Assembly (NCBI GenBank): GCA_018648655.1
Contig: JABGQV010000223.1
Span: 1-33,484 of the forward strand
DNA length: 33,484 nucleotides
Reading direction: 5' to 3'
DNA from: Anaerolineae bacterium
GTDB lineage: Bacteria; Chloroflexota; Anaerolineae; Anaerolineales; Villigracilaceae
Below, piece after piece: positions 39 to 17,446 of the stretch. A program made the translations under genes and the position numbers. The notes below the pieces were generated by a model that was not told the origin of the DNA, ran no database searches, and saw nothing but the letters and a program-made list of their open reading frames with translations. Position 1 is the first letter of the stretch; each line of letters opens with the position of its first letter.

Positions 39-2336
39 TTGGGGGTCATTATACTCTTTGCAAACACTTTCTATATTGCATTGATTTTTGCATTTCTTTT
101 TGCAATGATCTTTCCGCAACTTGCGCGCGCAGCCACAATCACTGTCAGCAACACCAATAACAGTGGCACTGGCTCTTTGCGCCAGGCGATTGCTGATGCT
201 GCATCAGGAGACACAATCAATTTCAGTATCTCTGGCACTATCATCCTGACTACCGGCGAACTGATTATCGATAAAAACCTTACTGTCGATGGAAGCGGGC
301 AAAGCATCGCGCTTAGCGGGGGGAATACTTCCAGCATCATTCGGATAAATACCGGAAATATTGGGATGACCGTCTCGCTTATCAGCCTTACTCTTCAAGA
401 TAGTGCCAATACTGCCGTCTCCAACGATGGAACCTTAACGATTACAAATTGTACATTTTCAAATAATGGCGGTCTGTCTACGGTCATTCTTGGTGGTGCT
501 ATTCATAACGATGGTATTCTAAGAATTAGCGGGAGTACTTTTTCTAATAACAGGGCTAATAGCAGCAGTAGCATAGCTGAAGGCGGTGCCATATACAACC
601 AGGGCACCATGAATATCACTGATAGCACCTTCTCTAATAACAGCGTTGACGGTTCCGTATCTCCCCGTGGCGGTGCCATTTTAAATCATTCAGTTGGAAC
701 AACGACTATTGCCAATAGCACCTTTTCTAGCAATGAAGTAGACCACTATTTCATATCTGGGCCTGAAAGTTTATATGGTGGGGCTATCCACAGCATGGGG
801 GCACTTGTAGTCACTAATAGTACTTTTACAGGCAACCACGCTCACATTGAAGTGCAAGCAGGGGCGACCGATAGTGATGCTAATGCCTATGGTGGTGCAA
901 TATACAGCAATGGCTCTCTTACGATCAGCAACAGCACCTTTTCTGGCAACAGTACTACTGCAACAGCATCCGGACAAACAATATCCTCAGGTGGTGCTGT
1001 ATATGGTAGCACTGTCAATACCACGATCTCAAATAGTACTTTCGCAGATAACAGTGTTTCTGCTAACGGTTCTACGTCACTTGCTTTCGGTGGCGGTATC
1101 TCATCTTCTGGCACATTAGAAAACAGTATTTTTGCCAACAACACTGGTGGGGATTGCACAGGTCCCTTTTCTGCTGATGCCTACAACCTGGATACAGATG
1201 GCTCCTGCAATAATGCCACACAGAAAACAGTAGCCGAAATTGGATTAAGCCCTCTGGCAGATAACGGTGGGCCAACGCAAACGATGGCAATTAGCAATAT
1301 AAGTGCTGCCTATAATGCTGCAGATAATAGCGTCTGCCAAGCAAAAGATCAGCGTGGGGTTGCCCGCCCACAATATAGCCGTTGCGATGTAGGCGCCTAC
1401 GAGCTTGATTCAACTTCTCCTCTTATAGAGTCCGATAATATTATCACCCCCTACTCAACCGGGCCCACATCTTTCACATTCGGCTTTATTGAAGATGTCT
1501 ACGACCCTGATGGCGACTCAAATAACGATGATGTGACAAACCCAGCCAATTACCTATTACTTGAAGAAGGAAACACAGTAGGCTTCCAAACCACGGCTTG
1601 CAATAACACAGACTTGGTCAACGATACCAAGGTTACGGTCAACAGTATTTCCTACAACGCATCCACATATCATGCAACCGTAAGCTTTAATGGCGGTATT
1701 TCTTTATTAGATGGAACCTATCGGCTATTTGTCTGCGGGACAACATCCATCGTGGATTGGGCCAATAATGCGCTCAATGGTGGAGCGGATTCTGCCTATA
1801 ATTTCACCGTTCAAGCAAACGCAACATCCTTGCCCACCACTGGCTTCCGCCATGGAAGCGTGACTGCGCTCCCCCAACAGCCTACCGCTAAAGCCTACGC
1901 ATCAACAACAATGATGCTTGAAATTCCCAGCATCGGTGTGGAGATACCCATCGTCGGTGTCCCCCAATCTGACGCTGGCTGGGATGTGACCTGGCTCGGC
2001 AATGGCGCGGGCTATTTGGCTGGCTCTGCCTTCCCCACTTGGGCAGGCAACACCGTCATCACCGGTCACGTTTGGGATGCATGGAATCAACCGGGAATCT
2101 TCTCAGACTTGAAAACGCTGAAGTACGGCGACCAAGTTCAAATCAAGGCGTGGGGGCAGGTTTACACCTACGAAGTCCGAGAAAGTAAATTGGTCACCAC
2201 CAAAAATGTGAACGCCGTCCTCCAATCCGAAGAATATGATTGGGTGACATTGGTGACGTGCGAGTTCTATAATCCTTTTACAGGAGATTACTTATTCCGT
2301 CGCAGTGTGAGGGCGGTTTTAGTGAGCGTGAAATAA
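39..2336 (+). CDS. Secreted right-handed beta-helix (PMP-like, choice-of-anchor Q type) protein with Ig-like domain, internal LPTTG motif and C-terminal sortase domain
   Basis: ORF 765 aa; repeated GGAIY..G.L.I.NSTFSGN motifs; 'DQRGVARPQ..RCDVGAYEL' anchor-Q signature; Big_5-like segment; LPTTG (nt 1830-1844); sortase motifs TGH and TLVTC plus a following Arg. TTG start at 39 is uncertain (in-frame TAG at 33-35). Confidence 0.85.
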   Translation: MGVIILFANTFYIALIFAFLFAMIFPQLARAATITVSNTNNSGTGSLRQAIADAASGDTINFSISGTIILTTGELIIDKNLTVDGSGQSIALSGGNTSSIIRINTGNIGMTVSLISLTLQDSANTAVSNDGTLTITNCTFSNNGGLSTVILGGAIHNDGILRISGSTFSNNRANSSSSIAEGGAIYNQGTMNITDSTFSNNSVDGSVSPRGGAILNHSVGTTTIANSTFSSNEVDHYFISGPESLYGGAIHSMGALVVTNSTFTGNHAHIEVQAGATDSDANAYGGAIYSNGSLTISNSTFSGNSTTATASGQTISSGGAVYGSTVNTTISNSTFADNSVSANGSTSLAFGGGISSSGTLENSIFANNTGGDCTGPFSADAYNLDTDGSCNNATQKTVAEIGLSPLADNGGPTQTMAISNISAAYNAADNSVCQAKDQRGVARPQYSRCDVGAYELDSTSPLIESDNIITPYSTGPTSFTFGFIEDVYDPDGDSNNDDVTNPANYLLLEEGNTVGFQTTACNNTDLVNDTKVTVNSISYNASTYHATVSFNGGISLLDGTYRLFVCGTTSIVDWANNALNGGADSAYNFTVQANATSLPTTGFRHGSVTALPQQPTAKAYASTTMMLEIPSIGVEIPIVGVPQSDAGWDVTWLGNGAGYLAGSAFPTWAGNTVITGHVWDAWNQPGIFSDLKTLKYGDQVQIKAWGQVYTYEVRESKLVTTKNVNAVLQSEEYDWVTLVTCEFYNPFTGDYLFRRSVRAVLVSVK
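1918..2336 (+). other. Sortase catalytic domain (copy 1) at the C-terminus of the 39-2336 CDS
   Basis: LEIPSIGVEIPIVGVP...VITGHVWD...WVTLVTCEFYNP...YLFRRSVRAVL: His/Cys/Arg sortase signature. Confidence 0.85.
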
Positions 2337-2658: not shown

Positions 2659-2766
2659 TGACGCAGCAGTAAAACTAAGGGCGAATACTCATCAGGTCTC
2701 AAGCGCACAACGCCTTTTTTTGTAGTGGGTAAAACCCACCTTATTTCTAAGCAGGAGAAACTTACC

Positions 2767-5112
2767 ATGAAATTTTCAAAGTTTGCTTCCACGGTCTTGA
2801 TCTTATCCTTCATTTTGACATCCATGCCAACGAAATCTGCCCATGCCGCGACAGGGCCTCTTTGCTATGTAGAAACTGGGGCAAGCGGAAGTGGGGACTC
2901 TTGGGGTAGTGCATACCCCGATCTACAAAGCGCACTAGCAGACACCAATTGCTCCGAAATATGGATCGTCCAAGGTACTTACTATCCTGATGAGGGCACA
3001 GGGCAAATAAATGATGATCGCGCATCCAGCTTTACGCTAAAAAACAATGTTGCGATCTATGGCGGCTTTGACGGTACAGAAACCTTGCGCGCAGATCGAG
3101 ATTGGGAAAGCAATACGACGACTTTGAGCGGTGATATCGATCAGATTACCGGAGATACTGGTAATGCTTACCATGTGTTAATCGGCGATGGAACAGACAG
3201 CACGGCTATTTTGGATGGCTTCACAATCACGGCAGGTAACGCAAATGCCCCCATAGCAACTTATCCCGATCCCAATGACCCAAATAGTTCAGGTGGTGGA
3301 TTATATATCTCTAATGGCAACGCAACACTTAAAAACCTGATTTTCTATAGCAACAAAGCTATTCAAGTCGGTGGAGGCATTTACGCCGTGGCCGACTATG
3401 GCGTCACCGGCTATAGCCCAACCCTGGACAATGTTCTCTTCAATATGAATACATCTGGTATCAGTGGCGCCGGTATTTATTTGGGTTTTGTGAGCACTCC
3501 CGGTTCCATAAAAAATACGACCTTCGACAATAATACGACCGCTTACGAAGGTGGGGGGATGATGATCCTAGCATGTGATCCAGTAATCGAAAATGTAACC
3601 TTTAACAATAACACAGCATCAGGAGGCCCTGATGTTTCTTATCTGATTCATGCGGGTGCCGCTATTTTTAATGACCTTGGTAGCAGGCCTACTATTACCA
3701 ATACCACCTTCAGCGGCAACTCAGCGGCTTCTAAAGGCGGCGCGATCTTTAATTCAAATAACAGTGCGCCAACCATTACGAATGCCACGTTCACCGGCAA
3801 CTCGGCTACAATATCAGGTGGAGCGATCTACAATTGGGCCAGCTACCCAACGCTTAACAACGTCATTCTCTGGGGAAATACCGCCGCTGATGAACCAGAA
3901 ATTTTTGATGAGCAATTCCCATCCTACCCTCCTTACAATGCTGAATCAACCATCAAGGATAGCGTTATTCAAGGTGGATGTCCGACGAACTCTAGCTGCA
4001 CAAATATCATCACAATAGACCCCAAGCTAGACGCCCTAACAGACAATGGTGGCAATACGCAAACCCATGCCCTGCTCCCCGGCTCGTCTGCGATCGATAA
4101 GGGCGCAAGCTGCCCCCCCACTGATCAACGCGGCATTTCACGCCCACAAGGTGCAGGCTGTGATATAGGCGCCTATGAATCTGGGGGCTTCAACGTGAGC
4201 AGCACTAGCCCAACATCCGGCGCAACGCTCATCAGCTTGGATACCATCGAAGTCATCTTCAGCGAAGATGCACTTCATGATGGCAGCAACAAAGCAGCTA
4301 ATAATACCGATAACTATATTCTGGTTGAAGCCGGAGCAAATGGGAGTTTCAACACCCAGTCCTGTGCTGGGGGCGTCATTTCTGATGATGTGAACCAAAA
4401 TATTATCAACGCCGCCTACGCCAACAACGGCGGTGCAGGCCCCTTCACAACTACCTTAGCTTTAGAAAACCCCTTGGAAGACGGAGATTATCGTCTCTTC
4501 ATCTGTGGAACCACATCCATTTGGAGTACAACAGGAATGGAATTGAACGACGGATTGGTCGATAATACCGTTAGTTTCATCGTTGGAATAGTCTCCACAT
4601 CATCCTTGCCCTCCACTGGCTTCCGACATGGAGAGGCGATTCAGCTCCCCAAACAGCCTGCCGCCAAAGCCTACACCGAAACAGCGATGATGCTGGAAAT
4701 TCCCAAATTGGATGTGAGTATGCCCATCGTCGGCGTGCCACAAAGTGATGCTGGCTGGGACGTGACTTGGCTCAACAATAGCGCAGGCTACTTGGCTGGA
4801 TCCGCTTTCCCCACTTGGGCAGGCAATACCGTCATCACCGGTCACGTTTGGGATTCGTTTAACCGCCCGGGCATCTTCTCAGACCTGAAAACGTTGAAAT
4901 ACGGCGACCAAGTTCAAATCAAGGCGTGGGGGCAGGTTTACACCTACGAAGTCCGAGAGAGTAAATTGGTCACCACCAAAAACGTGAGCGCAGTCCTCCA
5001 ATCCGAAGAATTTGATTGGGTCACGCTCGTGACTTGCGAGTTCTATAATCCCTTTACAGGAGATTATTTATTTAGAAGAGCCGTGAGAGCGGTTTTGGTT
5101 GAAATAAAATAA
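2767..5112 (+). CDS. Secreted beta-helix/choice-of-anchor Q protein with Ig-like domain, internal LPSTG motif and C-terminal sortase domain (paralog of the first CDS)
   Basis: ORF trimmed to ATG at 2767 (SD aggaga upstream); signal peptide MKFSKFASTVLILSFILTSMPTKSAHA-A; LPSTG at nt 4606-4620; TGH and TLVTC sortase motifs. Confidence 0.88.
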   Translation: MKFSKFASTVLILSFILTSMPTKSAHAATGPLCYVETGASGSGDSWGSAYPDLQSALADTNCSEIWIVQGTYYPDEGTGQINDDRASSFTLKNNVAIYGGFDGTETLRADRDWESNTTTLSGDIDQITGDTGNAYHVLIGDGTDSTAILDGFTITAGNANAPIATYPDPNDPNSSGGGLYISNGNATLKNLIFYSNKAIQVGGGIYAVADYGVTGYSPTLDNVLFNMNTSGISGAGIYLGFVSTPGSIKNTTFDNNTTAYEGGGMMILACDPVIENVTFNNNTASGGPDVSYLIHAGAAIFNDLGSRPTITNTTFSGNSAASKGGAIFNSNNSAPTITNATFTGNSATISGGAIYNWASYPTLNNVILWGNTAADEPEIFDEQFPSYPPYNAESTIKDSVIQGGCPTNSSCTNIITIDPKLDALTDNGGNTQTHALLPGSSAIDKGASCPPTDQRGISRPQGAGCDIGAYESGGFNVSSTSPTSGATLISLDTIEVIFSEDALHDGSNKAANNTDNYILVEAGANGSFNTQSCAGGVISDDVNQNIINAAYANNGGAGPFTTTLALENPLEDGDYRLFICGTTSIWSTTGMELNDGLVDNTVSFIVGIVSTSSLPSTGFRHGEAIQLPKQPAAKAYTETAMMLEIPKLDVSMPIVGVPQSDAGWDVTWLNNSAGYLAGSAFPTWAGNTVITGHVWDSFNRPGIFSDLKTLKYGDQVQIKAWGQVYTYEVRESKLVTTKNVSAVLQSEEFDWVTLVTCEFYNPFTGDYLFRRAVRAVLVEIK
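4690..5112 (+). other. Sortase catalytic domain (copy 2)
   Basis: About 118/128 residues identical to copy 1 over the core by hand alignment; TGHVWD, TLVTC, FRR. Confidence 0.85.
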
Positions 5113-5122
5113 ATCTCAAAAA

Positions 5123-5160
5123 ACAAAAAAGGCTACCAAGTTGGTAGCCTTTTTTGTTTT
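5123..5160. terminator. Bidirectional rho-independent terminator between convergent genes
   Basis: AAAAAA-GGCTACCA-agt-TGGTAGCC-TTTTTT. Confidence 0.9.
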
Positions 5161-6186
5161 TTATATCCAAAAAGCAGGAAAGATTAATCTCAGCGCCACA
5201 TCAATCAATAAGGCTACCATGAAGTACAAACCAAAAGCCCGATTATTCCCAAATGCCAGTGGGGCAAAATAGAGCGGCCAACCACCTTGGCCATCCGGGA
5301 AATCAGCAGGGCGTTCAGCTGGTCTTGGCTTCAATAATGCAGGGTATATCCCACGCAAGGTCGGAATTGCAAATAAAATCAACAGCATAATAGGTGTGAA
5401 GAATTTTATAGCAATAAGATAAACTGTAAAAAAATAGGGGAGAATCATCATCGCGAGAACTGTATAACGTGCAATTTTTTCGCCAATCACAACAGGAAGT
5501 GTGTAAATCTTCTTCTCTTTATCTATGGCAATCTTATCAATATGCTTCCCGAAGATAACGGTTGTAACGCCTAATACATAAGGCAAACTAGCGATGGTTA
5601 TATTCCAATCCCAATTCCCAGAAAGCACATAATAACCGCCACCGATCATCAGCGGGCCCCAAACAATGAGAACAGCGATCTCGCCTAGAGCAATATATTT
5701 CAGAGGCCAAGTATAAAAGAGCACAAAGAAAGCCCCTAAGCCCAATAATATCCATACAAAGCTATCATTACCACGATAAGAAATTAAATATAAACCAGAT
5801 ACCAAAGCCAATAAGCCTGTAATCCCTGCATAAAAAAGATGTTCTTTTTTAGTCATTAAACCACGCTCAACAGGCTGTGGACCATAAAGATTGCGAAAGT
5901 AATTATCCTTATCAACGCCAAGAGCATAGTCCGTAAAATCATTAAAGAAATTATTGGTAGCATGAGCAAGATTTAAGCCTAATACCAATGCCAGCCAAGG
6001 AAGAAACTGAAAACTTCCATCACGCAAAGCAAAAAGCCCCGCTAAGGCAGCTGATATAAAAGTCATTATCAACACCGCAGCACGGCTAGCAATCAACCAT
6101 CGCGAAATTATGTCAAGAGAGTCCCATTCTTCCTTAGATACTTCAGGGATAATATTTAAGGCCTTACGCCACATAGCAAAATTCAT
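5161..6186 (-). CDS. UbiA-family prenyltransferase (polytopic membrane protein)
   Basis: 341 aa, multiple TM segments, NNFFNDFTDYALGVDKD matching UbiA N/D-rich motif; SD aggag. Confidence 0.8.
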   Translation of the reverse strand: MNFAMWRKALNIIPEVSKEEWDSLDIISRWLIASRAAVLIMTFISAALAGLFALRDGSFQFLPWLALVLGLNLAHATNNFFNDFTDYALGVDKDNYFRNLYGPQPVERGLMTKKEHLFYAGITGLLALVSGLYLISYRGNDSFVWILLGLGAFFVLFYTWPLKYIALGEIAVLIVWGPLMIGGGYYVLSGNWDWNITIASLPYVLGVTTVIFGKHIDKIAIDKEKKIYTLPVVIGEKIARYTVLAMMILPYFFTVYLIAIKFFTPIMLLILFAIPTLRGIYPALLKPRPAERPADFPDGQGGWPLYFAPLAFGNNRAFGLYFMVALLIDVALRLIFPAFWI

Positions 6187-13108: not shown

Positions 13109-16100
13109 TTACTCAGCGAGGGGGAGTTCAGCTTCTTCTGTTGGGGGTTTTTCTTCCTCATCAGAGTCTGTTGCCTCAGCTACTGCTTCCATAACGGGAG
13201 CAAGCTCCGGGTCAACTTCGCCTTCGGTCTCTACATCTAACTCTTCTTCATCCAGTTCTTCTTCAACTTCTGGATCAAATCGTCCTGAAACAAATCCCGA
13301 ACCAGCAGGGATTAATTTACCAATGATCACGTTTTCTTTCAAACCGTAGAGCGGATCTTCATCCGAGCCAATCGCAGCTTTCGCCAACACTTTGATAGTG
13401 TGCTGGAAGGATGCAGCAGAAAGGAAGGAATCGGTATTAAGAGAGGCTTTGGTAATCCCCAAAAGGATATTAATAAAGCGAGCAGGCTGTTTGCCCTCTT
13501 CAAGCAAGACCTCGTTATCCCGTTGAACATCTTGCCTATCAAAGACATCGCCAGGGAGGTAATTGCTATCGTGAGGGTGCGTAATTTGCACCTTTGAGAG
13601 CATTTTACGAATAATAGTTTCGAAATGCTTATCGTGAATATTTTGCCCTTGTGAGCGATAAACTTGCTGCACCTCTCCCATCAAATATATCTGACAAGCG
13701 TGAATGCCTTGAATACGTAAAATGCTATGTGGGTTAAGCGAGCCTTCAGTAAGGGATTGCCCAGCTTCTACATAATCACCCTCGCTAACGATAACGCGCG
13801 CGGTGGTTGGGATATCATAGTCACTTTCTTCACCTTGTTCATAAGAGACAATTATTGCTTGATCTTCAATACGAACTTTACCGTCATTTTCAGCAGACAC
13901 AGTTGCTTCTTCGTGTGTTGCTAAAATTGTGCCTGCTTTAATTTCATCTTCATCACCAACGGCCATTTCCCAGCCTTCGGGAATTTCATAACGGTCGTTA
14001 ACCATTTGGCTATTTTCAACAATTACGGTGCGAAGATCGGCATATTTCTCAGATTGAGAGATACGTACTTTGCCTGCAATTTCAGACATAACCGCTTCGC
14101 CTTTAGGAGCTTTTCGGGCTTCAAAAAGCTCTTCAACACGGGGAAGACCGGTTGTAATATCGCTACCAGCAGCAACACCGCCAGTGTGGAAAGTACGCAG
14201 GGTAAGCTGCGTGCCCGGCTCACCAATAGATTGAGCAGCGACAATACCAACAGCAGAGCCTAACTCAACAAGTTCACCACGACCAAGGTCGTTACCATAA
14301 CATTTGGCACAAACACCGTGCTGGAGCGAACAAGTCATGGGTGAGCGAACAAAAACTTCCGCAAGATCAGATTTCATTATCTTGCGTGCCATGTCTTGAG
14401 TAATTGTATCGTTACGCTCGCCGATTACTTCACCAGTTTGCGGATCAAGGAGACGATCTGCTAAAAGACGACTATGAAGACGTGCACTAAGTGCCTGCCC
14501 TGCTATATCTTCATCTCTGCGAATCGTGATGCCATTTGTTGTTTCGCAATCATGTTCATTAACAATTAAATCTTGCGCAACATCTACAAGGCGTCGAGTA
14601 AGATAACCAGCATCTGCTGTACGAAGAGCGGTATCTGCCAAACCTTTACGAGCACCATGCGAAGAAATAAAATATTCCAGCGCCGTTAGGCCTTCGCGGA
14701 AGTTTGAGCGAATAGGAAGCGGAATAATACGCCCAGCAGGATCAGCCATAAGACCACGCATCCCAGCTAACTGGGAGATTGGTCCATAACCACCTTTGGT
14801 GGCACCAGAATCTGCCATTGTGGCAAGATTTCCGTTTGGATCCATTACTTTGCGAACTTCTAAACCTACAACCTTGGTTGTATCTTGCCAAATTTGAATA
14901 ACGCGCTCATCTTGCTCATTTTCAGTTAATAAGCCCCGTCTGAAATCACGTTGTACCAGCTCAACTTCTTGCAGAGATTCTTTAAGGATGTCTTTTTTCG
15001 TATCTGGGACAGCAATATCAGCAATAGCGATTGTAACGCCAGAGCGCATTGCATATTCAAAACCAATTGCCTTAATTCTGTCGGCAACTCTAGTAGTCTC
15101 TTCTTGTCCACAGATTTCATAAACATCTGCGATTAAGTCTTTTACCCCACCTTTATCCAATGTTTCGTTCACAAATTGGATTTCTGGTGGCAATATTTGA
15201 TTGAAAATTGCACGGCCTACGGTCGTATCAATCATGCGAGTTTCAGTTTCTTCTAAACGAGTATTTTCATCATTGTAGAAAGTTTCTACGCGCAATTTGA
15301 TATTTGTGTGAACTTCGACATTATCAAGCTCAAAGGCTAAGGTTGCTTCATCTAGCGAACCAAAAATACTTCCCTCGCCCTTATAGACAAATGGATCTGT
15401 CATTGTCAGATAATAAACGCCCAAAACCATATCTTTTGATGGGCTGATAATCGGCTCACCATCTGCTGGCTTAAGTAAGTTTTTGGATGACAACATCAGT
15501 CGACGTGCTTCTTCAACTGCTTTATCCGAAAGCGGGACGTGAACTGCCATTTGGTCGCCGTCAAAATCGGCATTAAATGCGGTTGTGACCAGCGGATGCA
15601 ACTGAATGGCACTTCCTTCAACAACGATTGGCTCGAAAGCCTGAATACCCAATCTGTGCAATGTTGGAGCACGATTTAGAAGCACTGGGCGGTCTTTAAT
15701 CACATCGTCAAGCACTTCCCAGACTTCTGGACGGTTGCGCTCAATCATTCGACGAGCGCCCTTAACATTGGCTGCGTAATTAAGATTGACCAACCCACCA
15801 ATAACAAAGGGGCGGAAGAGTTCCAATGCCATTTTTTTAGGAAGACCACATTGATAAAGTTTTAGTTTAGGTCCAACAACAATTACCGAACGCCCAGAAT
15901 AATCAACACGCTTACCGAGCAAGTTACGACGGAAACGCCCTTTCTTGCCTTTAAGCATATCGCTAAGCGATTTTAGCTCGCGTCTTCCACGGCGTGAAAG
16001 AGCCTTCCCACGTTGACTATTATCTATCAGCGAATCGACAGCTTCTTGCAACATCCGCTTTTCGTTACGGATAATGACATTTGGCGCACCCAATTCTAAT

Positions 16101-17446
16101 AAACGTTTGAGACGGTTATTTCTGTTGATGACACGACGGTAAAGATCATTCAAATCTGAGGTTGCAAAACGTCCACCATCTAATTGCACCATTGGGCGCA
16201 AATCAGGCGGGATGACGGGTAAGAAGTTCATAATCATCCATTCAGGTTTATTCCCTGAACGGCGAAATGCCTCAACAACCTTAAGGCGACTGGTCGCTTT
16301 CTTACGTTTTTGTTTGCTTTTTGTATTACGAACTTCGTACCAAAGCTCTTTTGAAAGGGCATCAAGATCGATGCGCTCAAGAATATCTAAAAAGGCTTCT
16401 GCACCCATATCAGCACGGAAAATCTTGCCCCAGCGAGCTCGATAATTTCGATAGCGAACTTCACTAAGGAAATCAAAGATTTGCAAATTAGCTAATTCTT
16501 TGCGAGTTTGTTTATTTTTTTCTTTTATCTCAACAGCTTGGGTGGCAACTTGATCACTCAAAAGTGCCAATTCTTCATCGCTTGTGGCTTTCAGAATTTC
16601 TATTTCTTGGTCGATTAGCCCAAAGCTATCATTTTTTTCTTTGCGAAGATTATCTTCAACATTATTTAAGTGCTCTCTAACGATTTCTTGCACTTTTGTT
16701 ATATGCTGTGATGCAACTATAGTACCTGCTTGCACGATAACGTCACCAGTTGCGTTAAAAATAATGTCTTTACGCGCTGCTACGCCCATTTGCTCTTGAA
16801 GGTCTTCGTCTAAACGTCGGCCTTCTTTCATGACTGGTTCAAGCAATGTGGCAGTTTGTTCGTCAAAGTCCTGTTCCATAGCTGCTCGGCTTGCTTCAAG
16901 GGCAGCTAAAGCTGTGGCACTACGGTCTTTGATTTCTGCAATTTTTGCGTCTGTTAGCGTATTTTGCTGCTCGGCATAATTTGCAATTTCTTCGTCTAAT
17001 TTATTTAATTCTCTTTCACGAGCATCTTCATCGACATAAGTAATAATATATTGTGCAAAATAAAGAACGCGATCAAGATTTTTACGAGAGATATTAAGTA
17101 ATAAACCTAGATAAGAAGGGATACGGCGCGTATACCAAATATGCGCAACAGGAGAAGCAAGTTCAATATGCCCCATCCGTTCGCGACGCACAGCTGAACG
17201 CGTAATTTCAACGCCACATTTTTCACAAGTAATTCCCTTATAACGTGGGTTTTTATATTTTCCACAATAGCATTGCCAATCACGTGTTGGACCAAAAATC
17301 GCCTCGCAAAAGAGACCGTCTTTTTCTGGGCGCAAGCGGCGATAGTTAATGGTTTCTGGTTTTAAAACTTCACCATAAGACCAACTACGAATTATTTCGG
17401 GTGATGCAAGACTGATACGAAGTGCTTTAAGCCCCTTAGTTTCCAC
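13109..17446 (-). CDS. rpoC: DNA-directed RNA polymerase subunit beta'
   Basis: 1445 aa; [16 protein letters not shown], zinc motif [39 protein letters not shown] start with gaggag SD. Confidence 0.97.

Follow-up and report, generated by a model that had tools for sequence, protein, structure and literature searches.

Sortases are known as stand-alone membrane enzymes with other proteins as their substrates, and they cleave the LPxTG motif between threonine and glycine. Apart from the proteins described here, a sortase placed directly after its own LPxTG tag is, to our knowledge, known only from laboratory-built fusions. Engineered fusions with the order target, LPGTG, linker and sortase A cleave themselves (PMC9985607); these autocyclases were built from S. 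aureus SrtA with a flexible designed linker and need an exposed N-terminal glycine to form a ring. The purification fusion PhaC-SrtA-LPETG-target (PMC4658790) is another engineered, self-cleaving chain that contains both the sortase and its signal. Among natural systems, class C (pilus) sortases carry an N-terminal segment ahead of the barrel that mimics LPxTG (PMC3493515), and in the classical LPxTG signal (Gram_pos_anchor / TIGR01167) a long, secreted, adhesin-like protein carries the motif close to its C-terminus, with a hydrophobic helix and a positive tail behind it. No natural sortase-substrate fusion and no work on Anaerolineae sortases were found in the literature searched, which left most subscription journals outside.

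The DNA analysed here, referred to as the window, comprises 33,484 nucleotides from an Anaerolineae bacterium and encodes two adjacent proteins that share with the autocyclases the order of passenger, LPxTG, linker and C-terminal sortase in one chain (Table 1). Fusion protein A starts with a hydrophobic stretch, continues with PMP-type repeats that make up a beta-helix, then with a choice-of-anchor Q domain and an Ig-like stretch, and ends with the motif LPTTGF, a linker and the sortase (...NATS-LPTTGF-RHGSVTALPQQPTAKAYASTTMMLEIP... around the motif). A preliminary description of this DNA had pointed out an LPxTG motif directly before a C-terminal sortase with TGH, TLVTC and Arg motifs, and both observations proved right. 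LPTTGF lies 28 residues ahead of the sortase, PF04203 matches residues 627-759 (E 2.8e-21, 76 bits against a cut-off of 26.6), and His677 of TGH, Cys741 of TLVTC and Arg754 are all intact. The sortase fold was confirmed by Foldseek against the PDB, where module A matched sortases with E down to 3.6e-10. At the N-terminus of protein A (...FPQLARA/ATITV), the hydrophobic stretch resembles a signal peptide without a preceding basic residue; the TTG start lies 39 nt into the contig (window 1-140), and the true start may differ, through loss or a frameshift. The paralogue downstream, fusion protein B, went unmentioned in the preliminary description and has the same architecture.

Table 1. Positions of the two fusion genes and their parts in the window
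Feature	Position (nt)	Strand	Remarks
Fusion protein A, secreted beta-helix passenger + LPTTGF + linker + sortase	39..2336	+	765 aa, TTG start
Choice-of-anchor Q domain, end of beta-helix passenger	1242..1406	+	NCBIfam NF041518, residues 402-456, E 6.3e-21
Module alignable as DNA between A and B	1822..2336	+	84%, blastn; starts 8 nt before LPTTGF codons
LPTTGF sorting-signal motif of A	1830..1847	+	Residues 598-603; LPTTG = nt 1830-1844; predicted scissile bond T601-G602
Conserved linker (RHGSVTALPQQPTAKAY...)	1848..1913	+	22 residues, predicted structured
Sortase domain A	1914..2333	+	PF04203; runs up to stop codon
Catalytic His677 of A	2067-2069	+	
Catalytic Cys741 of A	2259-2261	+	
Catalytic Arg754 of A	2298-2300	+	
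Fusion protein B, paralogue with architecture of A	2725..5112	+	Probable ATG at 2767
LPSTGF motif of B	4606..4623	+	
Sortase domain B	4690..5109	+	89% identical to A

The passengers of A and B gave no DNA-level alignment by blastn. As the DNA identity between the two genes runs from just before the motif to the end, LPxTG forms the edge of the shared unit. The genome to which the window belongs (3.07 Mb, 85% complete; the window is its contig 80) holds five complete sortase matches, namely A, B, two further fusions on contig 20 with the motifs LPSTGFQHG and LPATGFRHG, and an ordinary standalone sortase on contig 158 (L001) without an LPxTGF motif. A codon pattern for LPxTGF matched eight times in this genome, of which four are the fusion genes, two start with a Phe codon and two are out of frame. 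On contig 197 (L232, G000:C197:8000-13354, locus 3397-5317), the C-terminal remnant of a fused sortase lies directly upstream of the start of a further, intact-looking passenger gene of the same family, which is truncated by the contig end; this arrangement shows signs of gene turnover in the fusion family.

Relatives were searched in 400 Chloroflexota genomes and, in a second scan, in one genome per GTDB species. The first search split sharply into close relatives with E < 1e-26, nearly all of them long open reading frames, and ordinary sortases with E > 1e-17, mostly in frames of 200-430 residues. A search for this architecture across Chloroflexota had been proposed in the preliminary description; the close relatives occur in 24 of the 25 genomes from the same family (own genome included) and in few other genomes. 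In the scan by GTDB species, 404 stretches encode relatives, the best 80 of which are all from Chloroflexota and include the cultured carriers Longilinea arvoryzae, Leptolinea tardivitalis and Ornatilinea apprima. Counts and trees were drawn from this one phylum, and the distribution beyond it was judged via these best 80 of 404 loci. Each of ten genomes inspected had one housekeeping sortase and one to six fused ones, and in the tree the fused sortases group with one another (2 changes, compared to 16 in shuffles).

Conservation of LPxTG among homologues, on which the preliminary description had made its proposal depend, was found to be nearly complete. Among 130 distinct relatives from Anaerolineales, the consensus is [LIVM]Px[TS]GF, with Pro in 129, Thr in 124 plus Ser in 5, Gly in 128 and Phe in 128, and 38 members at < 60% identity show the same pattern. 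The x position is free (entropy 3.2 bits) and the residues before the motif are random (entropy > 3.3 bits), and 26-30 residues separate the motif from the first sortase strand in 129 of 130. Conserved core positions around a free x are the signature of a sorting signal, and the conserved module starts sharply at LPxTGF. A chance occurrence of LPxTG was rejected, given at least 128 of 130 at each core position and presence in 4/4 own-genome fusion copies with a complete sortase. The catalytic residues (H 130/130, C 130/130, R 129/130) are kept in essentially all members, and the sortases are active-looking. Even two very diverged fusions in genome G176 carry IPDTGY and IPQTGF ahead of the sortase. 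L119 looked like an exception but proved to be frameshifted, with ...NLPSTGFRHGQ in the other frame. L112 and L118 owe their shortness to a position at a contig end, and the fused copy of G112 is a remnant. Sortase columns that covary with L or I at the first motif position include V739, beside the catalytic Thr-Cys, among the top ones, but the signals were weak and uncorrected for kinship and were not used.

Since the tag is almost perfectly conserved across the 130, the fusion proteins probably cut and anchor themselves, that is, they are probably self-processing surface proteins in which the sortase would cut its own polypeptide and hand the passenger over to an amine at the surface. Once the protein is exported, its C-terminal sortase would bind the LPxTGF ahead of it, with the conserved linker holding the motif on the enzyme. 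Cys741 would then attack the Thr601-Gly602 bond, giving a thioester with the C-terminal Thr of the passenger and freeing the piece made of Gly602, linker and sortase. A surface amine, most simply that of peptidoglycan or of a lipid-linked precursor, would accept the passenger and anchor it covalently, and the sortase would thereby do the work that a membrane helix and a positive tail do in classical sorting signals. Of this sequence of events, we infer groove binding, cleavage, the acceptor, and whether a copy acts on itself or on another copy. A few members deviate from the motif (P to L in L057; L to A, P or Y in others), which counts against self-processing.

AlphaFold2 predicted the module of the window with a mean pLDDT of 93.5, and about 94 over the block holding the motif. 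In a Longilinea homologue modelled with 52 upstream residues, pLDDT is about 52 ahead of the motif and rises abruptly to 95 where the motif begins. Because the motif is an extended tail with pLDDT 94-95, compared to about 50 just upstream, LPxTGF is almost certainly packed on its own sortase domain in these models of two diverged members, and it would lie in the active-site groove. The segment following it had been described as a P/A-rich linker; alignment and AlphaFold2 instead point to a conserved segment (consensus APGxVTxLPxQPAxKAY among the 130 members) that is predicted to be structured. The Anaerolineales fusions differ in this from the autocyclases with their flexible linker, and self-cleavage is putative in the natural proteins. 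In PhaC-SrtA-LPETG-target, the sortase precedes the signal, whereas it follows the signal in the Anaerolineales fusions.

A docked motif might also be a pseudosubstrate lid, in which LPxTGF occupies the active site of its own sortase uncleaved and gates an enzyme that acts on other proteins. This is the main rival to self-processing, and we regard it as unlikely. In class C sortases, the lid precedes the barrel on its N-terminal side and overlaps with the position of the LPAT peptide in SrtA, and such lids have been called pseudosubstrates (PMC3493515). Class C is also the best-scoring NCBIfam subfamily for module A, although at 69.2 bits against a cut-off of 160, and class C sortases are among the best Foldseek matches. 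A fixed plug would agree with the invariant Phe and the apparently structured linker, and both count against self-processing insofar as they could equally mark a permanent structural plug. However, known lids bear DPF/Y/W and lack a full LPxTG that could be cleaved and whose x is free; nearly all 130 fusions have LPxTGF in place of the DP-aromatic lid and a large passenger in addition. Moreover, the sampled standalone sortases had no LPxTGF motif, nor had L017 (203 aa), the sole family member without a passenger, and because the motif is absent from both, it goes with having a passenger. As a separate observation, standalone sortases of the housekeeping type (L001 of the own genome, L063, L074, L075) have a conserved VLP[SG]GHTPP-like segment about 50 residues before the barrel, which is possibly lid-like.

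A gating lid would furthermore call for separate substrates, and few if any are visible in the same genomes. No protein of the own genome (85% complete) exceeded the Gram_pos_anchor cut-off, and searches with Gram_pos_anchor and TIGR01167 gave near-chance matches only, as in control genomes. Most relatives contain a single-copy membrane protein of about 190 residues with an N-terminal TM that ends in LPNTGF-TM-RRLR (L238-L258); the copy in the own genome (L253:1495-2067) is degenerate and reads LPDGGF. With no Gram_pos_anchor match and this degenerate candidate, the fused sortases are left without another obvious substrate in their own genome. A pool of separate LPxTGF substrates was also rejected in three complete genomes, where about 30 codon matches were inspected and one classical signal was found (G112), the remaining matches being cytoplasmic or membrane proteins or chance frames. 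Because the relatives hold this classical LPNTGF-TM-RRLR protein, LPxTGF is the local sorting signal. It is therefore more probable that the fused motif is a substrate than that it is an accident of structure.

The fused motif itself is not a classical cell-wall sorting signal, as had already been noted. A linker and a whole sortase follow it in the Anaerolineales fusions, and a scan of protein A and 131 family members found no hydrophobic helix or positive tail after the motif. Hydrophobic segments were flagged there in a few cases, but they are the first strands of the sortase and were rejected as tails. This bears on another reading, in which the housekeeping sortase (contig 158 in the own genome) would cut LPxTGF in trans, so that the passenger is shed or anchored, and the fused sortase would have another role. 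A housekeeping sortase is indeed present in 10 of 10 genomes inspected, and the LPNTGF protein of most relatives implies that the signal is probably recognised in trans. Trans cutting of the fusions seems improbable nevertheless: neither a membrane helix nor a positive tail is there to keep the substrate in place, the motif is predicted to dock on its own sortase, and the fused enzyme retains all catalytic residues.

The passengers carrying the LPxTGF-linker-sortase module are unrelated by Pfam and comprise Big_12 + Laminin_G_3, Cna_B, SdrD_B/DUF11, DUF7933/DUF7507 and ice-binding domains; beta-helix and Ig/LamG passengers also occur in the family. As the same unit is found on unrelated passengers, the module is a cassette that carries LPxTGF along. 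In genome G176, L042:2049-4439 encodes a Ser/Thr protein kinase with one TM helix, followed by LPRTGF and sortase; by its sequence this product is a membrane kinase with a predicted extracellular sortase domain. Wall anchoring has a less obvious purpose for such a passenger, a cytoplasmic kinase, which counts against self-processing.

The preliminary description had suggested that one chain may be both substrate and enzyme and might cleave itself in cis, release its sortase domain, or polymerise head to tail or ligate its beta-helix passenger. The conserved LPxTGF border on unrelated passengers gives good support to the double role as substrate and enzyme, and nothing specific was found in support of polymerisation or cyclisation of the beta-helix. 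In polymerisation or cyclisation, the thioester would be resolved by an amine of another or the same copy to give covalent fibres or rings; the sequence similarity to class C polymerases fits this, as do the engineered autocyclases, which yield rings, and oligomers at high concentration (PMC9985607). However, the C-terminal module is the only shared part, and no common acceptor motif, shared lysine motif or N-terminal Gly was evident in the passengers of the window copies, and such products thus appear very improbable. For passengers this diverse, anchoring to the wall or another surface amine would be the simpler outcome. Going beyond self-processing as such, we lean slightly towards a natural, widespread Anaerolineales family of single-use self-anchoring proteins that would cut themselves at LPxT/G and discard the enzyme after one turnover, and whose module would be passed on as a cassette among adhesins and ice-binding proteins, and even to a kinase.

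If true, a conserved family whose members each bring their own sortase would be a new way of anchoring surface proteins in bacteria from which classical LPxTG proteins are almost absent. The engineered fusions that cleave or cyclise themselves would then have a counterpart in nature. Natural linkers, evolved for presenting LPxTG to a tethered sortase, would be offered to protein engineering, and surface anchoring of the little-studied Anaerolineales would become directly testable in cultured species.

Elsewhere in the window, RpoC (13109-17446, 1445 aa) has its Rpb1 domain 1 spread over 505 residues, compared to a profile of 312 positions, which suggests an insertion.
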